A stretch of DNA of 61,353 bases from Allorhodopirellula solitaria (GTDB lineage: Bacteria > Planctomycetota > Planctomycetia > Pirellulales > Pirellulaceae), in the NCBI RefSeq assembly GCF_007859855.1, contig NZ_SJPK01000008.1, forward strand, positions 62,311-123,663, read 5' to 3'. The position numbers and the translations under genes are program-made. Positions 12,629 through 41,242 of this stretch are shown here, one piece after another (the stretch's first letter is position 1; each line of letters opens with the position of its first letter). The notes under the pieces are model-generated. The model was not told where the DNA came from and made no database searches. It saw nothing but the letters and a program-made list of their open reading frames with translations.

Positions 12629-13798
12629 TCAAGATTCGACGATTTCTGCCAAGGCATCGGCCAGGCGGTCGATCTCGTCGAGCGTCGTACTTGGCCCGCA
12701 ACTGATTCGCAGCGTTCCCGACTCTCGAGTGCCGAGGCAATCGTGGAGCTCGGCGGCGCAGTGATAGCCGGAGCGGACCTCGATACCGAATTCTGCATCG
12801 AGAATCGCAGCGGCTTCGGCGCACGAGAGCATCGCGCCGAACTCGATACTCGCGATCGGCAGGACGCCTTGCCCACCCACGATGTGGACGCCATCGATTT
12901 CGCTCAGCCGGTTGTGCAGCCTCGTGGTCAGGGCATGCCAGGTTTCGGGGGCGGTGGGTTGACGATCGAGAGCTGCATCCCAACCGGCCAGAGCCGCAAT
13001 ATTCATGCTGCCGGGCTCGAGTCGGCCTGGCATCGACGCGGGCATGCGGTCGGCGAGTCCATCGTGACCGCTGCCGCCTTGGATCGTCGGCTCGATCCGC
13101 TCGTGCAGGCTCGGGTGGAGATACAACATCGCGATACCGAGCGGTCCGCCACTGCCCTTGTGTGCCGGGGCCGCGAGCACATGCGCGCCCATCGAGGCAA
13201 CGTTGATCGGCAGCGAACCGAAGGTTTGCGCCGCGTCGCACAATAATAAAATCGAATCGGCGCTGGACCGCGACGCATTGATCAACGCGATCCGGCGTCC
13301 CACTTCGGCGACCGGGTACCGGATCCCGGTGACATTGGAGGCATCCGTTAGGGCAACCATCCGTGTTCGGGCGTTGATTGCTCCGACAATGGTATCGGCA
13401 TCGAGCGAACCATCTTTTTCGCAGCGGATGATTTCGAGTTCGGTACCACTGCGACGTGTGGCTTGCCTGAGCGGACGCAGGACAGAGTTATGCTCTGCCG
13501 ATGAAGCGATCACATGATGTTGCGAGCCGGCGGTGGCGGGCATCAAGCCATGGATTGCGGCGTTGAGCGCTGCGGTGCAACCGCTGTGAAAACTCACGCA
13601 CTGCCTCCCTTCCGCCCCGATCAGCTCCGCCAAGCGGCCTCGCACCCGTTCCCGGATCGTCGCAGCCTGGCGAGCCGAAGCGTAGTTGCCCCGTGACGAA
13701 TTGGCACCACAATCACGCATGAACTCCGTCATGGCGTCAATCACGCCAGCCGCTTTGGGCCAGCTCGTGGAGGCATGATCGAGATAGATTCGCGTCAC
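12629..13798 (-). CDS. Cysteine desulfurase-like class V aminotransferase
   Basis: A PLP-dependent enzyme of 389 aa that would take sulfur from cysteine for Fe-S cluster or thiolation use. Family features from the GTG start at 13798: YLDHASTSWPK (5-15), SSAEHNSVLRPL near 105 with the cofactor-stacking His, CDAAQTFG near 190, the PLP lysine K214 in APAHKGSGGP, and the catalytic-loop cysteine C347 in VRSGYHCAAELHD, followed by the terminal LRISCGPSTTLDEID. The GTG is preferred because YLDHAS begins almost every family member and because it makes a 4-base GTGA overlap with the giant gene upstream. No Suf or Isc partner is in the window, so its role is open. Confidence 0.85.
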   Translation of the reverse strand: MTRIYLDHASTSWPKAAGVIDAMTEFMRDCGANSSRGNYASARQAATIRERVRGRLAELIGAEGRQCVSFHSGCTAALNAAIHGLMPATAGSQHHVIASSAEHNSVLRPLRQATRRSGTELEIIRCEKDGSLDADTIVGAINARTRMVALTDASNVTGIRYPVAEVGRRIALINASRSSADSILLLCDAAQTFGSLPINVASMGAHVLAAPAHKGSGGPLGIAMLYLHPSLHERIEPTIQGGSGHDGLADRMPASMPGRLEPGSMNIAALAGWDAALDRQPTAPETWHALTTRLHNRLSEIDGVHIVGGQGVLPIASIEFGAMLSCAEAAAILDAEFGIEVRSGYHCAAELHDCLGTRESGTLRISCGPSTTLDEIDRLADALAEIVES

Positions 13799-16700: not shown

Positions 16701-19700
16701 CCCACGGCGCAGGGAAGGACGTTGCGTTCCGTTCGTCCGGTTCCGCCGCAGACATCGATGAGACGGTGTCCTCCTCCGGGGACACGGCCTCCGAGCCCGC
16801 TGCTGGAGACTGCTCTGGGGCTCCGCCATCGAGCCGGTGGCCAGGCTCCATCGCGATTTTCGGCATGCCAATCTGCCAGGCTCCGTGTTGTGGCGTCGCG
16901 AGGGTCCAAGCCAATCGGATCGGTCGTGCAGGCGTCGTCAATGACATGAAACGCACTGTCTGAGATGAGGCTGTGGAGCTAGTGTCACGTGACAGACACG
17001 TCCACTGCGTCCCCACGACGTCGCATGAGTCGACCGGCCCCCGAGCCAACTGGGACTCGGTGGGCCGCCATTCAGCTCGGTTGCCCTTGGCATCAATCGC
17101 GAGCACTGCGGGCGCCGACGTCGTGATCGCAACAACGACTTCCGGTGGCAGCGTCTGGAGACATTCGAGCTCACACTCGATCACTGTCTTCCCGCTTTCC
17201 GAATGGATCCAGAACCGTTGCTGCCACTGCGAGGCATCCTGCCATGGCAAGCGAGGGACATCCCTCGACGCCAAATTGCGAGTCCCCTCATCGCCAGCGT
17301 TCTCTGCCGGCACGCGTAGTTCCTCCACTGACGCCCTAGCAGAACTCGGGATCTGAAAACGCAAGCTCAACTGACGTTGCGAGCCGAGCAACATCACCGT
17401 GCTCTGACGCTCGCCGCCTTCATCGATTGTCCTGACTGATCCTAAGGGATCTGTCGGCGGCGATGATTCGTCTTCTCGCTGAGACTCCCAATCAACAAAC
17501 CAACTCGTCGTCGGCGTCAACAACATCACATTCTCAACGGCGTCGTTCGCCCGCACGACAAGATCTGCTGCGGGAAGCGAAGGAAGGTCGCAAGCAACTC
17601 TCACCCAGGGATCCTGCCATTGCAACTCACAGTTCAGTGAAATCGTGAGCTCCATGATTTCAGGATCACGGCCGAGCATCGGGATCTCAACCCACGCCCA
17701 TCCATCTCGCTCACCGCCCCAGCGGATTGTCACGGGAACGCCAATCGTATTGACCTGCATCACGTTGTCGATTTGGTCGAAACGATAAGGCAATCGAATT
17801 CGACGGATATTCGGCGGGAGCGTCAGCTTCAATCTCGCCTGCAGCTTCGCGGCGCCACTCTGACTGAGTATTTCATCGCTCACGATGGCATCGTCAGTTG
17901 ACGAATCAGGTTGTTGACTTTGGTTCAACGAACGATTCTCAAAGCCATTGCTTTCAAAGAAATCACCCGCCCCCAAAATCGAACGACTGTTCTCCAAGGG
18001 TGACTTCAGATGCAACTCGTAGGACACACGGTCGATCATCGGGTTCTGCCAGGACAAGCGGTCGCTGCGGAAGAACAGATCGTTATAGAAGGATTCAGGA
18101 ATGTAGATCTTATTGCCGAGGATCTCCCCGTCGCCCTGCAGAGGCACCAAGACGTCAATAGTCGGCGCCGACTTATCATCTTCGCTGTCATTGACCACCC
18201 GCCCCGCAGACGACAATTCGCTCGTCGCCGTTGCTTCGACGCTCTGTCCAGCCAATCGATTCGTCGTGGCAGCGGACCCGGCAAACGTCAACGCAAATAC
18301 AATCCAACCCACGAGCGGTGAGACGCCCGAGAGTCTGGATTCAGACGGGTCTTTCAACGACTGCGCCGCTCGTGCCTCAGAGTCTTTTCGGCCACCCTCA
18401 TCGTCACGATGCCAAACCGCTGTGGTGAGCTGGATGGCAGCGAGCGTCAACGGCAGCGCCACGAAGGTCAGCAATGCCATCGCGGCGGCCGGCCAAAGCG
18501 CCACGGCGACTGCTGTCAGTAGAATTCCTGCGACGACAACACGGAGGCTGCGCCGCCCCACTAAACAGGCCAAAGCGAGCAACAGAAAGGCAGCCACCCA
18601 CCCGATCCCCGTCACCAATCCCGTCGGCAATAAGAGCGGCGAGGCGGCGGGGTACCAAGGGCGGGCAAAGCCAGGCAAGTGAAAAGCTCGCGTCCCCGTG
18701 GAAGCGAGGAGTTGATTGCGGCGATCAACCGCTAACTGATCCAACTCGATCAGGGGAAATTGATACCATCGATACCAACGGTTCAGCGGCGTTTCCGAAA
18801 CCCAGTTGGCTTCGATCCGAACCCAACGCGGTGCAGACGAAGTTTGCAGGGATTCGGATTCCTCGGCGTCCGAGCGCCGAGGTTCTGAACGGCTCGATCC
18901 GGGCGTTCTTGCCAGCGAATCGGCCGATGGCGATTTCGCCGCTGCAACGGTGGCAGGCGTAGGAATCACCACACCATACCCAGGAATGACTCGAGGTGTG
19001 ATCAATACACCATCACAGCGAAGATCGACCAAATGCAACGAGGGAGGAAACGTCAAAAGCATCTCAGTGCGAGATCGCGCCAAACAGGTTAAACGCAAAG
19101 TATCGGTACCCGATACCGACGCCTCAGCCGTCAGGTGCTCACCCACGATCAATCCCAACGGCGTCGGGTGGGCCCGTGGCCGGACCTCTACCCAGGGTTG
19201 GTCATTGGGGGAATACCGATAACGTGTCGTCGTTGTGAAAGAGGAATCACGCCCGCCATCACGTGACGCTGTTGCGTCCGTGCCCGTACGATCATGGAAG
19301 CTCGAGTCCACCATCGGCACCCCTTTGAGTGTCTCGGGGTGTCGATGGAGTTGCAGTGACGAATCGATCCAGATTTCTGCTGATTGTGACGCCGCGTCGG
19401 GCACGTTGGGCAACCCAATGGCAAACTTCCGTCCTGTCTCTGCCCTGAGTCGACGTCGCCCCAGTAAGAGGGACTGATTGGTAAATTGAGGCGGCAAAGC
19501 AATCTGCACCTCCCAGTCACCGGAATTTTCAACGAAGTGTCGAGTCACGGCATGTTGAGCCAGAGGTGTTTCGGCTTGCCCGGGTTGCAGTTGCACATAC
19601 CACTGCAGCGACTGCCAAGGAGGCGTAGCTGCTCCCGTCGGACTGGATTCCGCCGGTGCATCCTCCGGCGCCCCTGTCGTGCTTCGCTCGCTGGAGAGAG

Positions 19701-22326: not shown

Positions 22327-25300
22327 CTGAACGCCTCCGACGAGTCCGAATCGGTAGGGGTATCTGCCTTGCGATACACTTCCCCGGATGTCGTCTGCTG
22401 GCTTCCATGGGATTCCTCCTCGTCTGTCTCCCCCTGATCCCTTTCAGGCTCATTTTCCAATACTCCTGCTGCAGGATTGGTACTCGGCATCAACGAAACG
22501 GATTGATCGGCATCCTTGATGGGAAGACTGGCATCGATCTCTCGCGTTTCCTGCTGGTCTTCCAGCGATTCCTGAAGCTGAGTCTTGGCGGGCTGCGCAC
22601 GGCCTGCAGGTTGGGTGGATACCACACGATTGCTACCACGGCGCGAGCTGCCTTCACGGCTGACACCACTCTCGCGCGAACTCGATCGAGGCGGCAGACC
22701 GCGTTGCCCACCGCGCGGTACCGCGAGTGCTGAAATCGCATAGAACACCGCCACGAGTGTCAATGAAATGATCACGAGCTGAGCCGTCAGGACGATCCCA
22801 TCGGGTGCAATCACCAACAATCCAGCCAACCCTATTGCCACCAGGAACGCGACCAGCGAATGATGCAGCCCAGGAAACCACTGTACCGCAGCAGCGAGCA
22901 ATAACACCAAACCGCCCACCGCGAGCCAGAGAACGGTACGCGAAACCGTGATCGCCGCGAAGGACAGCACGTTGCCTGCATAGAACAGATATCGATTGCC
23001 GGGTACCGCGAAAGTGGCATTGGAGAGCGACTCACGCAGCGCGGCCTGCAACAACTGCTCGGAGATCCGGTCCGGCGTACCAACGTCCCTGCGGCTGCTT
23101 TGCAACTCGCCGTCAGCAGACGGGCGGTCTGTCGAACTTGCCGTCGCCACCTCCGAGGAGACGCTGGCGGCTTCGGATCGAGACTCGAGCGATGTGTCTT
23201 CGCCGAATTGCCAATCCAAATCCAGTGCCCAGCGGATCAGGGCTGTATCGTTCGCGGTCGGCACCCGCGACAAATTCAGACCGTCACGCTGCCACCGCAT
23301 CGCGCGTCCCGATTGAGCCGATGCCCAAAACAAGTGCGAATCCGTGGGCACGACCAATTGCCAGTACTGCAACCCCGATCCAACCGGCAAGCGAATCATC
23401 GGCTCGGTACGCGACCACCACGGGTTGTTAGGTTCTTCCACCCACATCCGCACATCGAGTAGATGGGTTGAGTGCGGGGTATCGGGCAGGTCAATTCTCA
23501 AACCGGTGGCGTCACGGGTGCTCGCCGTAGGGCGCCCGTCCAGCATCACCTCGACCCGGATCGTCCGCAGGCTCGCGGGCAGGCCCAAGCGAACCCGGCG
23601 GCCCCCGCGGACCGATGCCAGCAAATGCTCATGCCGGAACTGTTTGCCAACCAAACTACGCAGATATGCACGGGGAATTTCTGTCAGCTTCTCCTCGCCG
23701 AGCCGGCTGCGGAGCACAATCGGAATCGGAAAATCCGGGACGACCTGGAATGTCCATTCATTCAAGCCGGAGCTCTCGTCCAGCGAATCTCCGCCCAGTG
23801 AGGGGATGGGTGAGAGTTGGAAACTGCCAGCTTCACCGTATTCTCCCATCGAACCATCCAGGTCGGGGAGAACTCGCCAAAACAATCCCGCCGAATCCAC
23901 CACGCCCAACGGCATTTTCAATCGTAGCGGCGACGGCATCGCCAACCGATCGGCGACCGGAGAGGGCAGGGCGAGCACGCCGCTGATCTCACCTCGGTCG
24001 ACGCTGAGCGAGCCGCTCGCGGCAGATCGATGAGGTGAACCGGGAGGCAAAATCGCTTGCTCAAAAACGAGCTCTACCTGCTGCGTCCCGGCGTCCAAGT
24101 AGGGTGAAACAATCTCGTAAACATTCCGATTCGCAAACTCCGACCCCGTCGATGACTCGGCCAAGGGCCCCCGGACGATCGCAGGGCTCCCGTCAACTAA
24201 CGCCGTCCATTGCTGCGGCGGAGCCAGCCGGCTCGCTGCGGAATCTGTTGCCGCGTTCTCGTCTGCACCGGAGGATCGTGTGAGCTGAGCAGAATCACCG
24301 GAGGGCGCAGAATCACCGGACGACACCGGTTCTGCAGGTGATTGCGACGGCGCCGCAGCATCCAACCTCCCGTTGATGCCTGCATCACGTGCTCCTAAGC
24401 CCGGGATGACAAATTTCAATCGGCCTTCGAGGTCCAGTGGACTGGTAATCGTCCACTGCGATCGAATCACCCAGTGGTCGCTCGACTGAGTTGCTGATAC
24501 CTCACCACCCCACTCCAGCTCCAGTGGCCGGGTGGCGAAGTCGCCATTGAGAACCCAAGGTGACTCGGGGATAAGAAATCGGAACCGGGAACTATTCTGT
24601 CCCGCGATCCGCTGCAGCGCCGGGCTCCGCCCGAGATCGACTAACCACGCTTCCTGGCGGTCGTCAGCGAGTGTCAATCGCACGTCGCGCACGACGCTCG
24701 CAGAATCGGTTGAAACCAGCTGCGGCAATGTCAATGATTCCAACGGCTCCGTCGCCGTGGTCGCCATCGTTTCAGCCGTGATCAGATAGCTCGAAGGCCA
24801 TTTGCCATCGGATGTGTCGACCTGCCATTCCGCATTGCCATCGGTTGTTGTGATATCGAGTTCTGTACCGGCAACGTCTGTTTCGATTCCGAGCAGTCTC
24901 CAATCTCCCAGCTCCAGACGCAGGCCCTTGGGATCAATTCCGATACCGCCAGCACGCACGTCGATCTCGACGCGGGCCGCACGACGCGTGACCGAGAGCT
25001 CCGCGTCGGCAGACAAACGGATCTGCTGTTGTTTGCGTGAGAGCCAAATTGGCAACTCAAAGCGAGTTTGGGTGAAGCGAAACGGGTACACCAAGTCGCC
25101 GTTGCTAGAATTGGTTTGCTCCGCAGCGACCGCATCGATGCCCATCCGCGGACGCCAGCGAAGACGATGATCGCTCGCCGTGCGAATCGTCACTTGCCCA
25201 CGGTGCCCAATCGCATCGGCCACCTGTGGGATTCGCAGTACCCACGGCTCTGCTGCGGTTGCATCCGGAGGAAACTGTCGCACCTGCAGTCTCAAGCGAA

Positions 25301-26795
25301 CCGATGAGGGGGCCTGCATCTGTTCCGGCCCCACCCACCGCACCACAATCCGCGTGGCTTCATCGCCATCCTGCTGTGTCGGTCCAGCCGCCGGCTCGGT
25401 AGCTTCGCTACGGGGCTCGTCTGGATGATCGGCGCGGGCGATGACGACCTCCCACCATGCCGCCTCGGTCGAGTTGCTCGAATCACGCGACTCACTGCCC
25501 GCCGATACAATTTCCGGTGGAGAAACGAGTACCGCCGATGCGGGCAATCGGATCTCGCATCCGTTCAATGACCCACGCAAATTCTTAGTGACCAACCGCA
25601 CGTCCATCGTGGGCGGTTCGGTCGGTGACTCCCACTGCAACTGGGTTTCCGACTCGACTTCGATCAAGGATCCGGTATCTCCCGCGTTCTCAGTGGCACC
25701 CGTGACGCGCAGTGCGATCATTCCACCGTCACACTCCACCGCATAGCGGTCCGATCCCTCGAGTCGCCGGGCGACTTCGCGTCCCGAACCCACAACATCG
25801 AGCAAGGCCGCATCGCCGTCATCGTCCGCGCCGTCGAGCTGCATCTGAATCAGCGTTGAAACGGACGGCAAACTCAATGGCAACCACGAGTGTCCAGGCG
25901 GCGTCGACCACACCCGAGCCGATAGTTCAAAACGGACCGTGACCACCATCGAACTGCGTGGCGAAAGAAACTTCTGCAATAAAGACTCCACCGGTAACAC
26001 CAATTGGTAACCGGCATCGCGACGCATCAACGCCTCGCTATGTGTCCCCATCGCTTGGCGGAGCACGTTGGGAAACGTCGACGGCAGCGATGCAAAGTCG
26101 GCCGAATCGCTCCCCATCTCACCTGACTCGCTCGCCAGCGTTGAAGCGCCTGCTGCAGAAATCGCACTGATTCGACCCGATGGCTGCGGCGGGACCAAAC
26201 GCAGATAGGCCCCTGGCACGGACTCCCCCAGGATCGCTGCGTCGCCGTCGGCTGAGCCGGTCTCTCCGGAAATCGTATTTCCCGCGCCACCATCGGTCCG
26301 ATCGACCGCAGCGGTCTCAGGGAATGCATCCTCGCGATCAACGTTCAGGCCGGGCGAGAAACGAACGTCAGCGGCCCTCAACAGATGGGCGCCGGCCATA
26401 CCAACATCGATCACCACCGATCGCCCCACCGTCTCCCGGACGGCCGCGCCATCGAGTCGCACCGCCAGTTCCGCGTTCCACTGGGCCCGTTCCCGCCCCA
26501 TCGTGCCCGCGATCGACAACCTCTCGAGCGTTGCTACCTGGTCGCCAGAACGCCCTCCGCGATCGAGCCGCCTCAGCCGATCGATCTCTTCAAACGACAT
26601 CCGTGGCATTACCACCGGAGTGTCGGATTCGTCCTGGAACAGGAACGCGTCAGGGCGAATCCCCTCCAGCTGCTCGGGCCAGGGCTCGTTATCCTGCAAT
26701 AACCCCCGAGGTGGCAATGTCCCCGGCCCCTGACCATAACCAGCCTCTACTCCCCCGACCGTGCTCCACCACGCCAACAATAACACCCCAGCCAT
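22323..26795 (-). CDS. Large exported membrane protein, about 1490 aa, unknown function
   Basis: The probable start is ATG at 26795 (MAGVLLLAWWSTVGGVEAG), which gives a signal peptide. The frame stays open upstream to 27182, and a longer start with more basic residues, for example GTG near 26864, cannot be excluded. The mature part is beta-rich and polar. Helices cluster at about residues 1275-1353, followed by a 135-residue disordered, charged C-terminal tail, probably cytoplasmic. The layout (exported region, helix cluster near the C-terminus) is like each half of the 2843-aa protein encoded next, whose GTG overlaps this stop (GTGA). The two probably act together. No known domain is recognised. 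Confidence 0.8.
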   Translation of the reverse strand: MAGVLLLAWWSTVGGVEAGYGQGPGTLPPRGLLQDNEPWPEQLEGIRPDAFLFQDESDTPVVMPRMSFEEIDRLRRLDRGGRSGDQVATLERLSIAGTMGRERAQWNAELAVRLDGAAVRETVGRSVVIDVGMAGAHLLRAADVRFSPGLNVDREDAFPETAAVDRTDGGAGNTISGETGSADGDAAILGESVPGAYLRLVPPQPSGRISAISAAGASTLASESGEMGSDSADFASLPSTFPNVLRQAMGTHSEALMRRDAGYQLVLPVESLLQKFLSPRSSMVVTVRFELSARVWSTPPGHSWLPLSLPSVSTLIQMQLDGADDDGDAALLDVVGSGREVARRLEGSDRYAVECDGGMIALRVTGATENAGDTGSLIEVESETQLQWESPTEPPTMDVRLVTKNLRGSLNGCEIRLPASAVLVSPPEIVSAGSESRDSSNSTEAAWWEVVIARADHPDEPRSEATEPAAGPTQQDGDEATRIVVRWVGPEQMQAPSSVRLRLQVRQFPPDATAAEPWVLRIPQVADAIGHRGQVTIRTASDHRLRWRPRMGIDAVAAEQTNSSNGDLVYPFRFTQTRFELPIWLSRKQQQIRLSADAELSVTRRAARVEIDVRAGGIGIDPKGLRLELGDWRLLGIETDVAGTELDITTTDGNAEWQVDTSDGKWPSSYLITAETMATTATEPLESLTLPQLVSTDSASVVRDVRLTLADDRQEAWLVDLGRSPALQRIAGQNSSRFRFLIPESPWVLNGDFATRPLELEWGGEVSATQSSDHWVIRSQWTITSPLDLEGRLKFVIPGLGARDAGINGRLDAAAPSQSPAEPVSSGDSAPSGDSAQLTRSSGADENAATDSAASRLAPPQQWTALVDGSPAIVRGPLAESSTGSEFANRNVYEIVSPYLDAGTQQVELVFEQAILPPGSPHRSAASGSLSVDRGEISGVLALPSPVADRLAMPSPLRLKMPLGVVDSAGLFWRVLPDLDGSMGEYGEAGSFQLSPIPSLGGDSLDESSGLNEWTFQVVPDFPIPIVLRSRLGEEKLTEIPRAYLRSLVGKQFRHEHLLASVRGGRRVRLGLPASLRTIRVEVMLDGRPTASTRDATGLRIDLPDTPHSTHLLDVRMWVEEPNNPWWSRTEPMIRLPVGSGLQYWQLVVPTDSHLFWASAQSGRAMRWQRDGLNLSRVPTANDTALIRWALDLDWQFGEDTSLESRSEAASVSSEVATASSTDRPSADGELQSSRRDVGTPDRISEQLLQAALRESLSNATFAVPGNRYLFYAGNVLSFAAITVSRTVLWLAVGGLVLLLAAAVQWFPGLHHSLVAFLVAIGLAGLLVIAPDGIVLTAQLVIISLTLVAVFYAISALAVPRGGQRGLPPRSSSRESGVSREGSSRRGSNRVVSTQPAGRAQPAKTQLQESLEDQQETREIDASLPIKDADQSVSLMPSTNPAAGVLENEPERDQGETDEEESHGSQQTTSGEVYRKADTPTDSDSSEAFR

Positions 26796-27395
26796 CAGCC
26801 TAGCTGCTCGGCATGCCCTCTCAGCGCACGTCGATCCACTCGATAAATCGATACAGCGATTGACCGTGTGCGCCGAGAGCAACAGTCGTCGGAAAAGAGT
26901 GAGTACAGGAGACAAGCGAATCACTGCGAAGCCAGTGAGGGCAATGAAATGCACACCCACCCGTGGGGCATTCCGTGTGCAATGGAAAAGGACATGAGGG
27001 GAGGGGTGAGTTCGGAGAAGACGCCTCTGCACAGCAGCCCCATCGGGCGACCAGAGGAGATATCGAAAGGCCCCTCCCAGTCTACGCAAATTAGTTGACC
27101 GGCAAAGCCAATTCTGTCGAATTGTTGTTTCAAGGTTTGTTCGCCCCCTCGAAATGATCGGGATAATCAGATCGAGCAGCACATTCGAACACCCTTGGGA
27201 CGTTCGCCCAAGCAGACGGGTTCTGGGTCGATCCGATGTTTTTCGTCCTGGATTCCCGCTTTATGGTAGGATATTGGCAAAGTCCTCCACTAATTACGGT
27301 GTTGGGTGAATTCACTTCTGTCTATAATCCAATGCAATAGGAAAGCCGTCGGCCGTTCGCCGGATTTCTCAAGCCCTCCCCTGTTTGAAAGCATC
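26796..27395. other. Divergent intergenic region, 600 bp
   Basis: The region lies between the minus-strand giant-protein operon and the plus-strand oxidoreductase. The minus frame of the giant gene continues through most of it, but the residues there do not resemble a protein family. Both promoters should be here. I see no site strong enough to name. Confidence 0.45.
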
Positions 27396-33333: not shown

Positions 33334-34110
33334 TCAGCCCGCTCGGACTGCGTGCGCCTTCGCTTTGCGAGCTCGGCGGCAGCGAGATGCGATGCCTGCT
33401 AGCCCCAGCACGCCAAAGATGGCCAATGAGGCTGGCTCGGGAGCATGCTCCTCCGGTGGCACATACTGCAGCTTGTCACTTCCCGCTCCAGCATTGACGC
33501 TTTGGAAACGCATCAATGCGCCCAGCACAGGATCGCTTTGGAATGCGACGGAAAACCCCTCGAGCATCCCAGCAGCATCCAGTGTCGAGCTCACAAGCTG
33601 AAAGGAAACGCTGTCATCCTCGCCCGCCTTGATCCCGCCTTTGGGATCTCCGTTGGCATTCCCGCCTCCATTCCCCTTCCCGTTCCCTTTCTTATCGATA
33701 CTTGTAAACCCGATCTCCATCGAACGCTGGCCGTCGAGCGTAAAGGGGGTCAAGAGATTGTCGAGGTTCGCTCCAGCGGTAAAACTGCCAGTACCAAACT
33801 CGGTGTTATCGATCAGGTCAAAACCAAAACCGGTCAGGTACGACTCGGTTGCTCCGGCGCCGAAAAGGGGACTACTAGTCGTGTTGAACACCTTCGCCGT
33901 GACTTTCACGAGGCCAGTTGAAAGATCAGCGAACCTTAGCTCCACGCGACCTGAGGCGCCCGTGTGCTCAGCATTGGACGACTTGCTGGCGGCTCCCAGC
34001 TCCAACACCAATGCACCATTCTGAATGATCCCTGCCGAGCCTGTGACGGGAGCCACCGAGGCACACGCCAGCAGCGTGCTGAGGAGTAAAATGAATTTCA
34101 AGTGGGACAT
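33334..34110 (-). CDS. PEP-CTERM-sorted surface protein
   Basis: A 258-aa protein with an N-terminal signal peptide (KFILLLSTLLACASVAPVTGSA). The C-terminal sorting tag is PEP followed by the hydrophobic ASLAIFGVLGLAGIA and the basic SRCRRARKAKA. This is the PEP-CTERM signal read by an exosortase (EpsH/XrtA type), linked in other bacteria to exopolysaccharide. The body is beta-rich, with a Gly/Asn/Lys-rich linker around residues 142-163 (KGNGKGNGGGNANGDPKGG). No exosortase is in the window. It is divergent from the CsbD gene, with which it shares a 460-base upstream region. Confidence 0.88.
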   Translation of the reverse strand: MSHLKFILLLSTLLACASVAPVTGSAGIIQNGALVLELGAASKSSNAEHTGASGRVELRFADLSTGLVKVTAKVFNTTSSPLFGAGATESYLTGFGFDLIDNTEFGTGSFTAGANLDNLLTPFTLDGQRSMEIGFTSIDKKGNGKGNGGGNANGDPKGGIKAGEDDSVSFQLVSSTLDAAGMLEGFSVAFQSDPVLGALMRFQSVNAGAGSDKLQYVPPEEHAPEPASLAIFGVLGLAGIASRCRRARKAKAHAVRAG

Positions 34111-34468: not shown

Positions 34469-34484
34469 TGGTACACAGTTTGCA
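34469..34484 (+). promoter_or_regulatory. Sigma-54 (-24/-12) promoter for the first CsbD gene
   Basis: TGGTACACAGTTTGCA matches the RpoN consensus TGGCACR-N4-TTGCW at all but one position. GG (34470-34471) and GC (34482-34483) are exactly 12 bases apart. It lies 90 bases ahead of the CsbD-like gene at 34574. Confidence 0.65.
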
Positions 34485-34573
34485 TCAGCTTTCAGCCCGT
34501 GAGGCTCGCCCGCATTCCACTGGGAAGTCTGGATTCCCCCGGGCGAAGCTGTTTTTTATGAAAGGAAAAGAAC

Positions 34574-34969
34574 ATGGTTACGAAACAAGAGGCATCGGGA
34601 CAGTGGAAATCCATCCACGGCTCGGTAAAAGAAAAATACGGGCAAATCACCGACGACGAACTCCTCCAGGTCGAAGGCGACCAGGAGCAGTTGATCGGCC
34701 TGATCCAGAAAAAGGTGGGCGCAGCCCGGTCAGAGGTCGAGGACTTTCTCAGCAAGGTGTACGCGGACTGCGGCGCCAGCTTCTCTTGGACAGGGGACAA
34801 ACTGCAGCAAAGTTACCAAGGATCGACCGAGATGGTCGCAAAACACCCAGCCGAATCGGTCGTGACGGCGTTGGGCATCGGATTGCTCGTCGGCGCCGCG
34901 ATCGGGTACTCACTGGCAGCGGACCGGTACCGACAGCCGACCTGGCGAGACCGCTGGAACGTCAGGTAG
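34574..34969 (+). CDS. CsbD-family protein with C-terminal membrane segment, 131 aa
   Basis: Residues 1-65 match the CsbD fold: ASGQWKSIHGSVKEKYGQITDDELLQVEGDQEQLIGLIQKKVGAARSEVEDFL. CsbD proteins are small stress-induced proteins of unclear role. A linker and a glycine-rich hydrophobic segment follow (ESVVTALGIGLLVGAAIGYSLAA, residues about 96-118) that would anchor it to a membrane. It is a paralogue of the gene at 37441, sharing W-x-x-x-x-G-x-x-K-E and T-D-D-x-L. A good ribosome site (AAAGGAAAAG) precedes the ATG and a sigma-54 promoter lies 90 bases upstream. Confidence 0.85.
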   Translation: MVTKQEASGQWKSIHGSVKEKYGQITDDELLQVEGDQEQLIGLIQKKVGAARSEVEDFLSKVYADCGASFSWTGDKLQQSYQGSTEMVAKHPAESVVTALGIGLLVGAAIGYSLAADRYRQPTWRDRWNVR

Positions 34970-35025
34970 TTGCCACTTGTCTTGATTCCATTTTTCATCA
35001 CCCCCGATTGCTAGGAACTTCAGTT

Positions 35026-35265
35026 ATGCCCTCCAATACACAAAGTACGAAATCCCGCTCGACCGTCGCTCAAATGCGCAGCCGCTTGGACGATGCAACG
35101 CACTCCACATCGGAGAACCTGCAAGCCTACGGCAGCCATTATGTCGCCGAACCCGCTCAAGACGTCGCGGGACTCGTCCGCGATTATGCTAAAGACCGTC
35201 CCGATGTCGCCGCCGTGTGGCTGTTCGGATTGGGCGTGCTCGTCGGCTGGAAATTGCGGGGTTAA
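35026..35265 (+). CDS. Small membrane-anchored protein, 79 aa (DUF883-like tail)
   Basis: The N-terminal 45 residues are polar and helical (STVAQMRSRLDDATHSTSENLQAY). The C-terminus YAKDRPDVAAVWLFGLGVLVGWKLRG is one membrane segment ending in a basic residue. The protein at 39007 has an almost identical tail (YAKDKPDVAACWAFGLGVFVGWKLKP), so the two are paralogues. The architecture is like DUF883/ElaB ribosome- or membrane-associated proteins, though I would not insist on the family. It follows the first CsbD gene by 56 bases and probably shares its sigma-54 promoter. Confidence 0.8.
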   Translation: MPSNTQSTKSRSTVAQMRSRLDDATHSTSENLQAYGSHYVAEPAQDVAGLVRDYAKDRPDVAAVWLFGLGVLVGWKLRG

Positions 35266-35382
35266 GCGTTCGAGCAGGCGGGGCGAAGGAGACTCGCGGT
35301 CGACCCAGCGATTGTAATCCGGCGGAATCTCGCTACAAACACGCGTCCCCGAACGCACACGCCCCGCCGTCTAGAGCTCCCG

Positions 35383-36345
35383 ATGAAAGTTACTGATTTT
35401 CTCGAAACGCACTTTCGCCACTTCAACGCACGCGAACTTCGAGACGCCGCTCGCGGCTACGGCGAGTTCATCGACAACGGCGGTAAAATGATGGTTACGC
35501 TCGCCGGGGCGATGAGCACTGGCGAGCTCGGTCTCTCGCTCGCCGAAATGATCCGGCAGGGGAAGGTCCATGCGGTGACCTGCACCGCCGCGAATTTGGA
35601 GGAAGACCTCTTCAATCTCGTCGCGCACGACGAATACCGTACGATCCCCAATTGGCGGGCATTATCGGTCGAGGACGAGGTGCGGCTGCGGGATGCCGGT
35701 TTTAACCGTGTTACCGATACCTGCATCCCCGAGACGGTGATGCGTCATCTCGAGCATCGCCTGACGAAGCTGTGGATCGAACAGGCGGCCAGAGACGAGA
35801 CAGCGATGCCTTGCGACTTCATGTTCGCTCTGCTCGACGACCCAGGCTTCACTGAGCACTTCCAGGTGCCCCGAGAGAACAGCTGGATGGCGGCGGCAAA
35901 GGACGCCGGGATTCCTGTCTACACGCCCGGCATCGAAGATTCCACGCTCGGCAATATCTACGCCGCCCGCGTTCACGACGGGACGGTCCCCAACCACACC
36001 GCGTTTGCCCCCGGCACCGAGCAGATGCAGCGGCTGATCGAGTGGTACGAATCCAACAGCGCCGACACGCCGATCGGAATCTTTCAAATCGGTGGGGGGA
36101 TCGCTGGTGATTTCCCGATCTGTGTCGTGCCACTGCTCAAACAGGACCTGGAGAAAGACGTTCGATTGTGGGGCTACTTCTGCCAGATCAGCGATGCCGT
36201 GACGAGCTACGGAGGTTACAGCGGAGCGGTCCCCAACGAAAAAATCACCTGGTACAAGCTCGACCCGGAGTCACCCAAATTCATGATCCAAAGCGACGCA
36301 ACGATCTGCGCACCGCTCATCTTTGCCCACGTACTGGATTGGTGA
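35383..36345 (+). CDS. Deoxyhypusine synthase-family protein, 320 aa
   Basis: Deoxyhypusine synthases move an aminobutyl group from spermidine. Bacterial relatives act instead in homospermidine or other polyamine chemistry. Matching blocks are MMVTLAGAMSTGELGLSLAEMIRQGKVHAVTCTAANLEEDLFN (residues 36-78), IGIFQIGGGIAGDFPICVVP near 230, SGAVPNEKITWYKLD, where K292 aligns with the catalytic lysine region, and the terminal DATICAPLIFAHVLDW. As bacteria lack eIF5A, hypusination is unlikely. It lies between the two CsbD sets, 117 bases after the first, and could be co-transcribed; a functional link is not shown. Confidence 0.87.
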   Translation: MKVTDFLETHFRHFNARELRDAARGYGEFIDNGGKMMVTLAGAMSTGELGLSLAEMIRQGKVHAVTCTAANLEEDLFNLVAHDEYRTIPNWRALSVEDEVRLRDAGFNRVTDTCIPETVMRHLEHRLTKLWIEQAARDETAMPCDFMFALLDDPGFTEHFQVPRENSWMAAAKDAGIPVYTPGIEDSTLGNIYAARVHDGTVPNHTAFAPGTEQMQRLIEWYESNSADTPIGIFQIGGGIAGDFPICVVPLLKQDLEKDVRLWGYFCQISDAVTSYGGYSGAVPNEKITWYKLDPESPKFMIQSDATICAPLIFAHVLDW

Positions 36346-36391
36346 CCGACGCCCGACAATCAGCCTGGCTGAGTCGGCGCTAGCTGCCTGC

Positions 36392-37009
36392 TCAACGCTC
36401 CTGCCGGAGCAGCCGCATGCCTTCACGGCCGTGATAACTCAATAGCAGCGCGCCGTCGGCGGCGCAAGCAGCGAAAATGTGCTCAAAGAAAGACTCTTCC
36501 CCTGGCCAAGGGAACATGAAGACCAGGTCGAACTCATCGATCTCCCAGCCAATCTCATCGTATACGTCGCCCTCTTCGGTCTCGACATTCTTGACTTCGC
36601 CAGCAATCTCGGCGAGACCCTCGACATCCCGCGGCACGAAACTGCCTTGGAAAAATCTAGCCGAACTACCAACGCGTTGAGCAACCTCTTCGGCTTGATG
36701 CACCAGTCGCGGTTCGATCTCAATCCCCACGGCCTGCATACCTCGCAGGGCCGCCAGCATGGTGGCGACGCCAAAGCCAGCCCCCCATTCGCAGAACCGG
36801 TTTCCCGTCAACAAATGGTTGCCGTGGATCCAGCTCATGGTTTGATCGAGCAAGTGGAAATCACAGGTGACAAAGTTCTCGATCACTTCGAGGTCCGCCA
36901 GCATGAAAGTCTCAATCGCCTCGTTGGCGGTATCGATCAGATCTTCGGCTTGGTCAGCGTACGCCAGCGTCTTGATCGAACCGTCAAGAGGAATAGATTG
37001 CAACGGCAT
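36392..37009 (-). CDS. Class I SAM-dependent methyltransferase, 205 aa
   Basis: Motif I, FCEWGAGFGVATMLAALRG (residues about 72-90), followed by VGIEIEPRLVHQAEE, with the acidic ribose-binding Glu, and FDLVFMFPWPGEESFFEHIF as motif IV/V, define a Rossmann-type methyltransferase. The substrate is unknown. It is convergent with the deoxyhypusine synthase-like gene, with 46 bases between the stops, and so is not part of the sigma-54 block. Confidence 0.82.
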   Translation of the reverse strand: MPLQSIPLDGSIKTLAYADQAEDLIDTANEAIETFMLADLEVIENFVTCDFHLLDQTMSWIHGNHLLTGNRFCEWGAGFGVATMLAALRGMQAVGIEIEPRLVHQAEEVAQRVGSSARFFQGSFVPRDVEGLAEIAGEVKNVETEEGDVYDEIGWEIDEFDLVFMFPWPGEESFFEHIFAACAADGALLLSYHGREGMRLLRQER

Positions 37010-37341
37010 CGTTTACTTTGTCAGGTGAGAGAGGAAACTGCAGAAAGGTGCCCGGGGCAGCGATGACCTATCCTCCCTGCGGGCGGTCTCGCTGACAAGC
37101 GAGTGCCTGCGTACTGGCAACCAGGGAGAGTCGAAATACGTGCCTCCAACGAGTCTTTCAGGGAAGGCTGGCCATACCGCCGCAAACATTTGCACCGCGC
37201 CAGATCTGGAAAGCCCCTTTGGCTTTCCTAGCCGTTCTCTGACGGCGATCGCCAAGTTTTTGCGGCATGATTTGCCAAGATGGTCGATTTCACGCCAATC
37301 AGCCTCCAGATTCTCTTGCTGAAATACTTCAATTCTTCGTT

Positions 37342-37357
37342 TGGCACAGCGAATGCA
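37342..37357 (+). promoter_or_regulatory. Sigma-54 (-24/-12) promoter for the CsbD-HPt operon
   Basis: TGGCACAGCGAATGCA fits TGGCACR-N4-TTGCW with a single mismatch (A for T before TGC). The GG and GC elements are 12 bases apart. It stands 84 bases ahead of the CsbD gene at 37441, almost the same distance as the site at 34469. No other gene lies in the 431-base gap 37010-37440. Confidence 0.7.
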
Positions 37358-37440
37358 ACGTAGACTTTCTTACACTCCGCGGCCAACCGTTTGCGTTTTA
37401 GCTGCGGAGCCTCAACCGCACAAACCAACAGGATCTCAAC

Positions 37441-37872
37441 ATGGCAAACCGCGAACAACTCCAAGGCCACTGGAACGAAGTGAAAGGTCGGCTAAAGGAA
37501 CATTGGGGGCAACTCACCGACGACGACCTCCGTCAGTTCGATGGAAGCGCCGATCAACTCGTCGGCATGGTCCAGCGAAAAACGGGCGCCGCTCGCAATG
37601 AAGTGGAGAGCTTCCTCGATGGGATGTTCCAGGGCTCGGTAAGCGACCAAGCCGCTGAAAAAATCCAACACTACGCCGACGCAGCGCAGAACTTCGCCGA
37701 TGACGCCGGCCGTTATGCTCGTGATCAAGGCCGCCGACTGGCTGCCCAATCGAGCGATTATTCAGCGCAGCTCGCCCATACCGTCCGCAGTCGTCCGGCC
37801 GAATCGCTAGCGATCGCCTTCGGGCTCGGTATCGCTGCGGGAGCCGTATTCTTCCTCGGGCGGAAACGGTAG
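37441..37872 (+). CDS. CsbD-family protein with C-terminal membrane segment, 143 aa
   Basis: Residues 1-62 are a full CsbD domain ([43 protein letters not shown]). A helical Ala/Asp/Arg-rich linker follows ([21 protein letters not shown]), then a C-terminal hydrophobic segment ending in Lys/Arg ([22 protein letters not shown]), the layout of DUF883-type anchors. It is the first gene of a seven-gene run to the HPt gene, with gaps of 2 bases or less, or overlaps, through the first five genes. It is paralogous to the CsbD gene at 34574. CsbD proteins are stress-induced elsewhere; the activity is unknown. Confidence 0.87.
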
Positions 37873-37874
37873 TC

Positions 37875-38300
37875 ATGCCTTCGTCGGTAACCACAGCGAC
37901 ACGAAAACAGTCCGAGGCGATTCGAAGCCGAATGCGTGAGATTCGGAGTGACTTGCCCTACGACGTCGATGACGCTCGAGCACGGGTTAAGCAGCTATCC
38001 GATTGGAAGTATCACGTGTCACAACGACCGTTCGCAGTCGCGGCGGCCGCAGCCGTCGTGGGCTATCTCATCGTCCCTGCCAAGCAGTCGTCAGCGTCAA
38101 CCGTAGTGGTCCAACAAGACCGCGCCGGAGCCATCGACACGCCCTCTGAGAAGGGCATGTTTGCCGGCATCGCCGGTACGCTTGTGACCCTCTTGGCGAG
38201 ACAGGCCCTCCGCGTCGCCACCAACCAAGTAGTCGGTGCGATGTCTGCCCGTAGCGGTGCCTCTCCGTCTCCCTCTCAACCGGAAGTTCACTCGTCATGA
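37875..38300 (+). CDS. Small membrane protein, 141 aa
   Basis: A basic N-terminal half predicted to be helical (RKQSEAIRSRMREIRSDLPYDVDDARARVKQLSDWKYHVSQRP) leads into a short hydrophobic segment (FAVAAAAAVVGYLIVPAK, about 53-70). A second amphipathic/hydrophobic stretch follows (MFAGIAGTLVTLLARQALRVATNQVVGAM, about 95-123). The pattern rkPf.vaa.a...GYl is common in DUF3618- or DUF883-type proteins. It starts 2 bases after the CsbD gene and overlaps the next by 4 bases (ATGA). Confidence 0.75.
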   Translation: MPSSVTTATRKQSEAIRSRMREIRSDLPYDVDDARARVKQLSDWKYHVSQRPFAVAAAAAVVGYLIVPAKQSSASTVVVQQDRAGAIDTPSEKGMFAGIAGTLVTLLARQALRVATNQVVGAMSARSGASPSPSQPEVHSS

Positions 38301-38494
38301 TTGCTCCTTTGGTCGAACACGTACCCGAATCGTCACCGCGGCGTCATGCCGCAGCGATTCGCCGCGCCGAAAACCAGCCCTCTCAACGGATCTCTCGTTT
38401 CGTCGAGAAGCAACCCGCCGCCGTGATCGCCGTTGCGGTCGCCTTTGGAATCGGCGTGGGCTGGTTGGTCAAACGAAAGAAATGGTCCAGCTAA
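38297..38494 (+). CDS. Tiny single-pass membrane protein, 65 aa
   Basis: A polar N-terminal 38 residues, then VEKQPAAVIAVAVAFGIGVGWLVKRKKWSS, one membrane segment with a strongly basic end. The pattern P(A)-hydrophobic-GIGVGWLVKRK matches the tails of the DUF883-like proteins in this cluster. It overlaps the preceding gene by ATGA and its stop overlaps the next start by one base, so translation is probably coupled. Confidence 0.72.
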   Translation: MIAPLVEHVPESSPRRHAAAIRRAENQPSQRISRFVEKQPAAVIAVAVAFGIGVGWLVKRKKWSS

Positions 38495-39006
38495 TGTCCA
38501 CCGCCGCAGATCCCCAACAGCCGCTCTCGAGCTTTCAGCGTGTCGTCCGCGATGTGCTCGATCTGCTTGAACTGCAGATGCAGTTGATCGCCGTTGATAG
38601 CGAGGCAGCCAAACGCAGCCTGATTCGAGCGGTCGCGTGCGGGGCAGTTGCCCTCGCTCTAGCGGGCTCGGCACTGACCGTTGCGATGGTCGGGGCTGGC
38701 TTTGTCCTGGGCGAATTCACGCAACTGACCACGGGTGGATCGCTCCTGATCGTCAGCGTAGCGTTTTTCCTAATCGTCGCCTCACTCGGTTGGGTGGCCT
38801 TCCGGGCGATCCTCGCTGCCTCGGCCGCGATGAGCGAAACGAAATCCGAATTCACCGAAAACTTGCGTTGGCTCAAAGCCACATTGATCTCCCCGCAGAC
38901 CTCGGCCCGTAATCAGCTTCGCCGCGAATCGTTCTACGATCGCACCTCTGTCTCCTACAGTGACGGCGCCGATGCCGCCGCTGCTTCCTCCCACTATCGA
39001 AGGTAG
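38494..39006 (+). CDS. Phage holin/Holin-X-like membrane protein, 170 aa
   Basis: The ATG at 38494 shares its A with the TAA stop of the gene before it. The N-terminal 35 residues are amphipathic (VVRDVLDLLELQMQLIAVDSEAAKRSLIRA). Two hydrophobic hairpin helices follow (ACGAVALALAGSALTVAMVGAGFVLG, about 49-74, and GGSLLIVSVAFFLIVASLGWVAFRAI, about 83-108), and then a polar tail with a LKAT motif. This is the layout of the Actinobacterial Holin-X / DUF1469 family (PF07332), found in many bacteria without phage genes, often beside DUF883-like genes. It is probably an inner-membrane structural or stress protein. Confidence 0.75.
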   Translation: MSTAADPQQPLSSFQRVVRDVLDLLELQMQLIAVDSEAAKRSLIRAVACGAVALALAGSALTVAMVGAGFVLGEFTQLTTGGSLLIVSVAFFLIVASLGWVAFRAILAASAAMSETKSEFTENLRWLKATLISPQTSARNQLRRESFYDRTSVSYSDGADAAAASSHYRR

Positions 39007-39255
39007 ATGCAAATGTCGGAAACTCCTCCATCCTCCACTCCCGGTAAGTCCATGTCTGACCACGCCCGCCAGACCGCCGAACGAGCCGCCTCTGGCGCAG
39101 GCGACGCGGCCCAGGACGCCGCTCGCCATTTCGTCAGCGAGCCAGCCGGAGATTTGTTGAGCCTTGCCAAGCAGTACGCAAAAGACAAACCCGATGTCGC
39201 AGCCTGCTGGGCATTTGGCCTCGGCGTCTTCGTCGGTTGGAAGCTCAAGCCTTAA
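39007..39255 (+). CDS. Small membrane-anchored protein, 82 aa, paralogue of 35026-35265
   Basis: It begins directly after the preceding stop (TAGATG); Met 1 or Met 3 may be used. The N-terminal half is Ala/Asp-rich and helical (HARQTAERAASGAGDAAQDAARHFV), and the C-terminus is LAKQYAKDKPDVAACWAFGLGVFVGWKLKP. The tail is nearly the same as that of the 79-aa protein at 35026, so one came from the other by duplication. Function is unknown, probably the same for both. The response regulator follows after 74 bases. Confidence 0.77.
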   Translation: MQMSETPPSSTPGKSMSDHARQTAERAASGAGDAAQDAARHFVSEPAGDLLSLAKQYAKDKPDVAACWAFGLGVFVGWKLKP

Positions 39256-39329
39256 TCGGGCAGTCTTTTAGGGATGTCCAATCGACAGCCATTGATCGTG
39301 TCGTCTAAAATCGGAAGGAAATATTTTTC

Positions 39330-40877
39330 ATGTCCACTGGAATTGCGAAGCCGCCCCACGAAGAAGACGGATTGGCGGTGCAGTCCCGGCCACAGCCACA
39401 GCCCTCTGAGTTTAAAACGATGCCCAGTTTGCTAGTCATCGACGACGATCGTCTGGTCCTCACCCTGACTCAGAAATCACTTGCTTCGATCGCAGACGTC
39501 GAGACGGCCGCAACCGCTGCCGAAGGGCTCGAGAAGGTTCGCCGCGGAGACTACGACGCTGTCCTGCTGGATATTCAGCTCCCCGATCAGAACGGACTCG
39601 CTGTCTATTGCGAAATCCGCGAACACGATCGCCGCATCCCCGTGATCTTCATGACGATCGAAGCGGCCAGCAACACGGCGATCGAAGCCATGCAGCTCGG
39701 AGCGTTTGACTACATCGCCAAGCCGCTCGCAGTCGACCCATTGCGAGATTTGGTCGAAAAGGCGATTGAACAACGTCAGATCAGCAGCGTCCCGGTGGCG
39801 ATCTCAGCGGACGACCAGGACTCAGACACCAACGCTGAGCTCTTCATCGGTCGCTCCCCGGCCATGCTCGACGTGTTCAAGGCGATCGGCAAAGTGGCGA
39901 AGCAAGATGTGCCAATTCTCGTCCGTGGCGAAAGCGGAACAGGGAAGGAACTCGTCGCTCGGGCACTCTACCAATACAGCCAACGTAGTGACGAAATTTT
40001 CCTTGCCGTTAACTGCGCCGCCCTGCCCGATAACTTGCTCGAGAGCGAACTGTTTGGGCACGAAAAAGGAGCATTCACCGGCGCCGAATCCCGCCGGATT
40101 GGTAAGTTCGAACAGTGCAACGGCGGAACACTCTTCCTCGACGAGATCGGCGACATGGCCCCGTCGGTGCAAGCCAAAGTGCTGCGGGTGCTGCAGGACC
40201 AACGATTCGAGCGAGTTGGAGGCAACAAAGAACTGAAGACCAACGTGCGCATCATCGCCGCTACCAACCGCCCGCTCGAACAGATGGTCTTGGACGGCGA
40301 CTACCGCGAAGACCTGTTGTACCGACTCAATGGCGTCACGATCGAATTGCCGCCACTGCGTGACCGGCTTACCGACGTGCCAGCCCTGATTCAGTTCTTC
40401 CTCAGTGGCGCCAAGAAGGAGTTCAACAAACCTGACCTCGAGGGCCTATCGCCTGACGCTGTCGAACTTTTGAACGCCTACCAGTGGCCGGGCAACGTGC
40501 GGCAACTGCGGGCGGTGATTCGCCGCTGCGTGCTTGACACTGTAATGCCCGTGATTACGCCCGACGGATTGCCACGCGAAGTCTCAGGAGACTCCGCACC
40601 GAATCCCAAGGCGTCCGCGAGCAAATCGACGGAGTCGGGTTCCGGATTGCCCGCTTTGGTACGAGAGTTGTTAGAGAAAGGATCCACCAACGTCTACGCT
40701 GAGGCGACGCAGTACATGGAACGCTACGTGATCGCGGAAGTCCTGCGTGAAACAAATGGCAACCAAAGTCAAGCGGCGGAGATATTGGGAATCACTCGTG
40801 GCAAGCTGCGTGACCGCATCACCTCGTTCCGAATTGTCTTGAAGAACGATGTCGAAGTGGAGGCTGGCGTAAAATGA
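39330..40877 (+). CDS. NtrC-family sigma-54-dependent response regulator
   Basis: A receiver domain holds the phosphorylation site D81 (AVLLDIQLPDQNG), with acidic D38-D40, T109 and K131 (FDYIAKPL). The AAA+ domain has Walker A GESGTGKE (200-207), the sigma-54 contact loop GAFTGA (247-252), Walker B GGTLFLDE (265-272) and the R-finger region EDLLYRLNGVTIELPPLRDR. A Fis-type helix-turn-helix ends the protein (NQSQAAEILGITRGKLRDRI). It would switch on RpoN promoters once phosphorylated. A second Met at residue 31 (MPSLLVIDDD) is the more usual start for such proteins; the first 30 residues are Pro/Gln-rich. It is adjacent to two good sigma-54 promoters and so is their likely activator. No sensor kinase is in the window. 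Confidence 0.93.
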   Translation: MSTGIAKPPHEEDGLAVQSRPQPQPSEFKTMPSLLVIDDDRLVLTLTQKSLASIADVETAATAAEGLEKVRRGDYDAVLLDIQLPDQNGLAVYCEIREHDRRIPVIFMTIEAASNTAIEAMQLGAFDYIAKPLAVDPLRDLVEKAIEQRQISSVPVAISADDQDSDTNAELFIGRSPAMLDVFKAIGKVAKQDVPILVRGESGTGKELVARALYQYSQRSDEIFLAVNCAALPDNLLESELFGHEKGAFTGAESRRIGKFEQCNGGTLFLDEIGDMAPSVQAKVLRVLQDQRFERVGGNKELKTNVRIIAATNRPLEQMVLDGDYREDLLYRLNGVTIELPPLRDRLTDVPALIQFFLSGAKKEFNKPDLEGLSPDAVELLNAYQWPGNVRQLRAVIRRCVLDTVMPVITPDGLPREVSGDSAPNPKASASKSTESGSGLPALVRELLEKGSTNVYAEATQYMERYVIAEVLRETNGNQSQAAEILGITRGKLRDRITSFRIVLKNDVEVEAGVK

Positions 40878-41242
40878 AATCGGACACAAATATGGCAACT
40901 CTGACAGACCAACAGCTAGAACGCTTTGCCGCTGCTCTGGAACGTGTGGGAGGAGATACCGACATGTTGGTTGTGCTGGCAGCAATGGCGGCTGAAGATG
41001 CACCACCGCTCTTAACGAAGCTGGAGAGCGAAGTGCGCGACAGTGACCTCCGGGCGGCAGCGCACACTGCCCACGCGCTCAAAGGATTGCTCAGCGCCTT
41101 CGAGACCGGTCAACCAATTGAGGGATTGCAGCCCCTCATCGATGCCGCTCGTGAAGGCAACCAGAGCGAGGCGCTGAGGCTGCTCGATTCACTTCAGCCC
41201 AAACTGGAGAGCTTTATTCATCAGGTGAAAGAACTCCAGTAA
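40874..41242 (+). CDS. HPt (histidine phosphotransfer) domain protein, 122 aa
   Basis: A free-standing HPt four-helix bundle. AAAHTAHALKGLLSAF contains the phospho-accepting His at residue 67 (H-A-L-K-G). It would carry phosphate between a hybrid sensor kinase and a receiver. It overlaps the regulator gene by ATGA, so the two are probably made together and D81 of that regulator is its likely partner. The hybrid kinase must be encoded elsewhere. The missing glycine (SAFE where SxxxG is usual) is a minor departure from the family. Confidence 0.82.
   Translation: MKSDTNMATLTDQQLERFAAALERVGGDTDMLVVLAAMAAEDAPPLLTKLESEVRDSDLRAAAHTAHALKGLLSAFETGQPIEGLQPLIDAAREGNQSEALRLLDSLQPKLESFIHQVKELQ

Follow-up and report, generated by a model that had tools for sequence, protein, structure and literature searches.

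We examined a 61,353-nucleotide stretch (contig C8, positions 62311–123663; 'the window') of the 6.8 Mb genome of Allorhodopirellula solitaria, in which two sets of genes, each led by a gene for a CsbD-domain protein, lie behind predicted sigma-54 (−24/−12) promoters. Set 1, located 3′ of promoter 1, consists of CsbD1 followed by PDV1, and set 2, located 3′ of promoter 2, runs from CsbD2 through Tm141, Tm65, HolX and PDV2 to an activator (EBP) and a histidine phosphotransfer protein (HPt). The features of the locus are as follows:

34469–34484, + strand: predicted sigma-54 (−24/−12) promoter 1, TGGTACACAGTTTGCA; perfect match to the motif, with a counterpart in the relative G007
34574–34969, + strand: CsbD1, a CsbD domain (PF05532, 3.8e-16) with a C-terminal hydrophobic anchor, its hydrophobic segment beginning at residue 96
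35026–35265, + strand: PDV1, 79 aa, with a PDVAAxWxFGLGVxVGWKL end identified by alignment; without a Pfam match
35383–36345, + strand: deoxyhypusine-synthase-family gene (PF01916, 2.7e-38), in an order common to G007 (locus L035)
37342–37357, + strand: predicted sigma-54 (−24/−12) promoter 2, TGGCACAGCGAATGCA; perfect match to the motif, kept in loci L035, L037 and L038
37441–37872, + strand: CsbD2, a CsbD domain (PF05532, 1.5e-17) with a C-terminal YqjD-like glycine-rich anchor (family tail against the E. coli YqjD anchor, 87% probability, by profile comparison only)
37875–38300, + strand: Tm141, a conserved protein with one hydrophobic segment, without a known family
38297–38494, + strand: Tm65, a small protein with a YqjD-like C-terminal anchor (family tail against YqjD, 82%, likewise by profile comparison only)
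38494–39006, + strand: HolX, a YqjE-family membrane protein (PF07332, 8.4e-11; E. coli YqjE matches the same model)
39007–39255, + strand: PDV2, a PDVAAxWxFGLGVxVGWKL protein identified by alignment, relatives of which some sources name DUF883 or ElaB/YqjD/DUF883 family
39330–40877, + strand: EBP, an activator with receiver, sigma-54 AAA+ and Fis helix-turn-helix domains (domain matches; conserved residues in an alignment of 11)
40874–41242, + strand: HPt, a free-standing histidine phosphotransfer protein (PF01627, 1.4e-5; His67 invariant in 11/11)

A first-pass annotation, made from the sequence alone, had described two CsbD-led sets that each include a PDVAAxWxFGLGVxVGWKL protein, the larger continuing from a Holin-X-like protein to an NtrC-type regulator and an HPt protein. 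Both descriptions were borne out by profile searches and alignment. CsbD1 and CsbD2 scored 59.2 and 63.6 bits against PF05532 (gathering cut-off 40), and the C-terminal ends of PDV1 (RPDVAAVWLFGLGVLVGWKLRG) and PDV2 (KPDVAACWAFGLGVFVGWKLKP) could be aligned; HolX scored 42.4 bits against PF07332 (gathering cut-off 28.4), a model on which E. coli YqjE reaches 75.8, and HPt lies just above the PF01627 cut-off (25.7 against 24.6 bits). PDV2 and EBP are separated by 74 bases, and the start of HPt overlaps the stop of EBP. Between the two sets lie the deoxyhypusine-synthase-family gene, which may or may not be carried on the PDV1 transcript, and a methyltransferase-like gene on the opposite strand.

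Perfect matches to TGGYACRN4WTGCW, which represents the established −24/−12 consensus, occur at only two positions in the 61-kb window, 34469 and 37342, compared with a mean of 0.10 matches in 100 dinucleotide shuffles, one of which reached two. Both sites are on the + strand, and the starts of CsbD1 (34574) and CsbD2 (37441) fall 90 and 84 bases past the last base of the respective site, so that the coordinates and distances of the first-pass annotation hold. Each predicted site thus combines GG-N10-GC spacing, a near-consensus −24/−12 element and a sensible distance to the first gene, and the host genome contains one match to the sigma-54 DNA-binding family. When two mismatches were allowed, a nearly identical motif occurred in the window at the level expected by chance (24 found, 24.6 expected); the case for the promoters therefore rests on the near-perfect match together with position and conservation.

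Conservation was assessed on 98 distinct CsbD genes (96 from the Pirellulaceae and 2 from a different family in the order), comprising 58 long, 26 short MNW-type and 14 remaining genes; the 84 long and MNW-type genes include the two from the other family. A site was counted if it had at most one mismatch, an intact GG-N10-GC and a position 50–165 nucleotides upstream of the start. Such sites preceded 45 of the 84 related CsbD genes (34/58 long, 11/26 MNW-type), compared with 26 of the 696 other genes examined; among the 497 of these whose upstream gap reached 150 nucleotides, the count was 19. EBP genes account for 8 of those 26 and for 1 of those 19. The remaining CsbD genes, mostly of another short type, form a natural control, with a site before 1 of 14. 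The Fisher value for 45/84 against 19/497 (8e-29) overstates the case, because the relatives are not independent. With two mismatches the counts rose to 43/58 for long and 17/26 for MNW-type genes, 1/14 for the remaining genes and 55/497 for other genes. By genus, at least one long or MNW-type CsbD gene with a site at no more than one mismatch was found in 16 of 28. In alignments with relatives, the −24/−12 element stood out in most groups as a conserved block against diverged surroundings (two groups aligned poorly), as illustrated by TGGTACACGCTTTGCT, the counterpart of promoter 1 in G007, around which the DNA has diverged.

The same association was visible beyond the family. Elsewhere in our sample of the phylum we found 48 CsbD matches, 47 of which gave a start; sites with at most one mismatch preceded 8/14 long genes and 6/33 short ones (10/14 and 8/33 at two mismatches). 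A second family within the class (f21; loci L360–L374) contributed most of these long genes, and the sigma-54 wiring therefore accompanies the CsbD type that is long and anchored, and extends beyond the Pirellulaceae. The conservation of the sites between species agrees with the sigma-54 control of both sets that had been predicted, and we conclude from the sequence that the sites before both CsbD sets are very probably promoters. A chance origin of the two was rejected in view of the two perfect matches where 0.10 were expected and of the enrichment before CsbD genes.

The first-pass annotation had proposed a search for the same gene order in other Pirellulaceae, and the order CsbD2-Tm141-Tm65-HolX-PDV2-EBP-HPt was indeed present in several relatives (loci L035, L036, L037, L038 and L140). 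Variants of it exist: in six genomes (L041–L046) an M20 peptidase gene and a glutamate-cysteine-ligase-family gene sit between PDV2 and EBP, and in L047 and L103 the CsbD part and the EBP part are convergent. At L146, HPt adjoins the PDV, HolX and CsbD genes, with EBP on another contig of that genome. Within 6 kb of the 48 long CsbD genes for which context was fetched, Tm141-type genes were found in 27 cases, HolX-type in 25, PDV-type in 22 and HPt-type in 10. A gene for an AI-2E-family transporter lies within the same distance of 17 of the 48 (L102, L107, L155 and others). Named homologues come from Rhodopirellula-type Pirellulaceae, for example Allorhodopirellula, Aporhodopirellula and Novipirellula, and a close relative of EBP was present in all 13 genomes of the genus searched, its own included.

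CsbD and EBP also tend to occur in the same genomes. Among 119 genomes of the family (12 EBP candidates scored per genome, so some absences may be false), 49 contained CsbD, 70 gave a match to EBP at 1e-100, and 46 had both (Fisher 1.7e-11, a figure inflated by shared ancestry). Put differently, a match at 1e-100 or better was present in 46/49 CsbD-positive and 24/70 CsbD-negative genomes, and CsbD was present in every one of the 20 genomes whose EBP was close (at least 63% identity).

EBP has the composition of a receiver-type sigma-54 activator, with a PF00158 AAA+ domain, a GAFTGA loop, a receiver aspartate and a Fis helix-turn-helix; D81, T109, K131 and FTGA are invariant in the alignment of 11. 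It shares the receiver, the AAA+ domain with GAFTGA and the Fis domain with the NtrC/ZraR/AtoC group, but it scores below the equivalog cut-off for NtrC proper (NCBIfam TIGR01818, 461.9 against 558.6 bits), its partner is a free HPt with no adjoining kinase, and its predicted targets are CsbD genes.

The arrangement of EBP relative to the CsbD genes takes two forms. Where EBP lies inside the CsbD operon, a sigma-54 site of its own was absent in 5/5 loci; where it lies apart, such a site was found about 80 nucleotides upstream in 10/15 (eight at no more than one mismatch and two at two, six of the ten being from near-identical species). Sigma-54 control of EBP is thus kept by two different layouts, which argues that self-activation matters and suggests that it has been selected. 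The earlier proposal that the activator belongs to its own regulon is accordingly strengthened, in both the embedded and the separate form. A sigma-70-like match at 39282–39311 could supply basal EBP expression.

The genome contains six PF01627 matches, of which only this HPt occupies a short frame (142 aa), the other five being in frames of 846–1206 codons. No histidine kinase was found at the locus itself or in the remaining large open reading frames (ORFs) scanned in the window, and the relay is therefore a proposed one. Thirteen matches to one hybrid kinase were found in the same genome, all outside the window, and the best match to the kinase at L047 was 54% identical over the kinase and receiver part. 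In relatives, 5 of the 48 long CsbD genes have a hybrid-kinase-type neighbour; two of these neighbours had their domains scanned.

The usual members of the CsbD/YjbJ family are small soluble proteins under the control of SigB or RpoS. CsbD1 and CsbD2 share PF05532 with these stress proteins and differ in ending in a hydrophobic tail and in lying behind a sigma-54 promoter. In the AlphaFold model of CsbD2 (mean pLDDT, a model confidence score, 58.9) only the CsbD part is fair. The end of PDV2 is weakly hydrophobic, its value of 1.14 being below the usual cut of 1.4 for a membrane segment. PF19029, the C-terminal glycine zipper of DUF883, is listed for one CsbD homologue (P0089). The nearest parallel is E. 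coli yqjCDEK, in which, as here, a PF07332 protein comes after a small protein whose C-terminus forms a glycine-rich anchor; the present locus differs in having an N-terminal CsbD domain rather than DUF883, in its additional PDV and Tm141 proteins, and in its sigma-54 promoter with linked activator and HPt. YqjD and ElaB are reported to bind ribosomes and, in stationary phase, to position them at the inner membrane, and yqjD to be repressed by CsrA (PMC10746276); ElaB is reported to be regulated by OxyR and RpoS (PMC6389858). By analogy, the CsbD-anchor proteins may have a role like that of YqjD and ElaB.

The description of the regulon as 'self-contained' proved too narrow, because sigma-54 sites recur before other genes and no kinase was found at the locus. 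The third, short CsbD gene of the genome (L053:5415-5695, G000:C1:834761) has a near-consensus site upstream, TGGCCCGCCAATTGCA. Among the 18 strict sites of the genome, two precede genes for DUF892 and DUF1206 proteins and one a gene for a small lipoprotein, and others fall within genes; these are stress-associated families. For DUF892 (20 matches, less the weak L220, which was excluded, and L226 and L227, for which no frame was obtained), a site at no more than two mismatches was found in 15/17, 7 of them at no more than one, as at L214 (one mismatch), compared with the background of 55/497; the control gene, triosephosphate isomerase, had a site in 0/27 (frames from 27 of 30 loci, of 43 matches). 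DUF1206 genes had a site in 4/5, scanned over 420 nucleotides with up to two mismatches and thus more widely than the 50–165 nucleotides used elsewhere. The small lipoprotein, with a GCDVE motif, had a site 98–123 nucleotides upstream in 7/7 loci (L166 and L041–L046). The own-genome cases (DUF892 at L224, DUF1206 at L339, lipoprotein at L166) had been discovered through their sites; with these removed the counts are 14/16, 3/4 and 6/6, the last from six close species.

The genes described here fit a trend reported in a 2025 survey (PMC12316311), which lists UspA, MscS, chaperones and csrA as predicted sigma-54 targets in Planctomycetia, with MscS enriched among them, and which finds EBP-type genes behind predicted sigma-54 promoters in Planctomycetota among other phyla; its main text contains no CsbD, YqjD or DUF892, nor the COG numbers tried. 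For R. baltica, a sigma-54 promoter has been proposed for one shared stress gene, thioredoxin (PMC2754498). Titles and abstract openings of the papers listed for CsbD or YqjD with RpoN/sigma-54, or for planctomycetes, held no description of this module. A study of Pirellula activators by Studholme and Dixon (2004) may hold related predictions.

We conclude that the module is real and conserved, and that its parts are known and their combination new. The predicted promoters, the gene order, the conservation, the co-occurrence and the feedback layout can all be read from the DNA itself. We think it probable that the module forms the core of a wider, general-stress-like sigma-54 regulon, resembling E. 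coli yqjDE plus CsbD and wired to RpoN. For the transcription units, the phosphotransfer, the pairing of EBP with these promoters, the signal and the function of the proteins, we infer the following. The two sigma-54 promoters would drive two stress gene sets. A histidine kinase, probably hybrid, would sense stress and pass phosphate via HPt to the receiver of EBP; phosphorylated EBP, bound upstream, would hydrolyse ATP and thereby open the RpoN polymerase at the CsbD promoters, and the second transcript, carrying the EBP and HPt genes, would provide positive feedback. The products would comprise CsbD proteins with fused YqjD-like membrane anchors, small proteins rich in glycine and a protein of the YqjE family. 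By analogy with YqjD and ElaB, these might line the membrane on its inner face, hold ribosomes or keep them silent, and shield the membrane in growth arrest or under osmotic, cold or heat stress.

The likeness to the general stress responses of sigma-S, sigma-B or EcfG type would be one of working only, since the promoters are of sigma-54 type and those responses have an alternative sigma factor of the sigma-70 family as master. A broader proposal, which we put forward tentatively and with some doubt, is that the Pirellulaceae, and probably other Planctomycetia, run general stress and growth arrest through sigma-54 and a self-amplifying activator fed by a phosphorelay, rather than through sigma-S, sigma-B or EcfG, the core output being CsbD/YqjDE-like proteins anchored in the membrane. 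Sigma-54 is silent without an ATP-driven activator, and a general-stress programme based on it would therefore be tightly off, with a logic unlike the competition models for sigma-S and sigma-B.

Several observations weigh against a stress regulon of this kind. No site at one mismatch or fewer was found before 39 of the 84 CsbD genes, and none at two before 24; a well-placed site was missing before 5 of the 15 separated EBP genes. Three CsbD-containing genomes had no EBP match at 1e-100 among the 12 candidates scored in each, and seven loci with a close EBP (three of them second copies) had no CsbD set in the stretch examined. Models for DUF883 (PF05957, N-terminal; PF19029, C-terminal glycine zipper) matched no protein of the window. 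In R. baltica arrays, rpoN is reported as unregulated in heat shock and down at high salinity (PMC2754498). The sigma-70-like match at 39282–39311 (10/12) lies directly 5′ of EBP, although such matches are no commoner than in shuffles. The idea that the PDV proteins are YqjD homologues, in line with the names given to relatives by some sources, was not supported (18.5%).

One alternative is that the promoters are real and that another of the roughly dozen activators of the genome drives them, EBP and HPt being cotranscribed and having other targets. Of 74 candidates in the genome, 25 were scored, and these yielded at least 13 EBP-like matches at 1e-60, EBP itself included; any such match could act on these promoters, and many CsbD genes in relatives have no adjoining EBP. 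A search for a shared enhancer, using dyad counts in 75 upstream regions (those of CsbD genes with a usable site and EBP promoters) and a palindrome-constrained motif search in 36 of them, yielded no EBP enhancer motif; the best palindrome, with a CGATCG core, exceeded mononucleotide shuffles but may be a common word of these genomes, and is not claimed as an enhancer. A GTGCT-N6-AGCAC dyad was present at three loci of Rhodopirellula type; the regions of the window showed none. Against another activator stand the presence of CsbD in 20/20 genomes with a close EBP, the frequent retention of either EBP adjacency or its own sigma-54 site, and the gene order kept in several species, and we regard this alternative as unlikely, though deserving of attention.

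A second alternative, to which we give a similarly low probability, is a narrow envelope or osmotic response, in line with the envelope stress response suggested by the first-pass annotation, rather than the core of a general-stress programme. The sequence itself gives no sign that envelope stress is the signal. Membrane-anchored proteins predominate among the products, genes for MscS-type and AI-2E-type transporters are recurrent neighbours, and the MscS enrichment in the survey of predicted Planctomycetia targets (PMC12316311) points the same way; the same promoter type before DUF892, DUF1206 and small CsbD genes argues for a broader response, and the YqjDE likeness points to growth arrest.

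That the sites are chance matches, with the genes read from sigma-70 or extracytoplasmic function (ECF) promoters, is highly improbable: the chance-level frequency of two-mismatch sites in the window, the slight genome-wide enrichment of the strict motif (18 sites against 12 for the reversed pattern) and the presence of two ECF sigma factors in the shared set of genes that stress induces in R. baltica (PMC2754498, Table 1) speak for it, but the excess of perfect sites, their position and their conservation across species oppose it, and the region of both sets held no terminator or sigma-70 promoter above shuffles that would account for them, its two sigma-70-like matches being no commoner than in shuffles and neither of them before a CsbD gene.

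If the regulon exists as proposed, planctomycetes, with their large genomes and little mapped regulation, would gain a testable stress regulator, and many 'hypothetical' stress genes would gain a promoter. Two further features of the window lie outside the gene sets. A gene for a PEP-CTERM-ended protein (PF07589; window positions 33334–34110, − strand) is divergent from CsbD1, and two adjoining ORFs of 2843 and 1619 aa, without a Pfam match at 1e-5, occupy positions 13795–27182 on the − strand.

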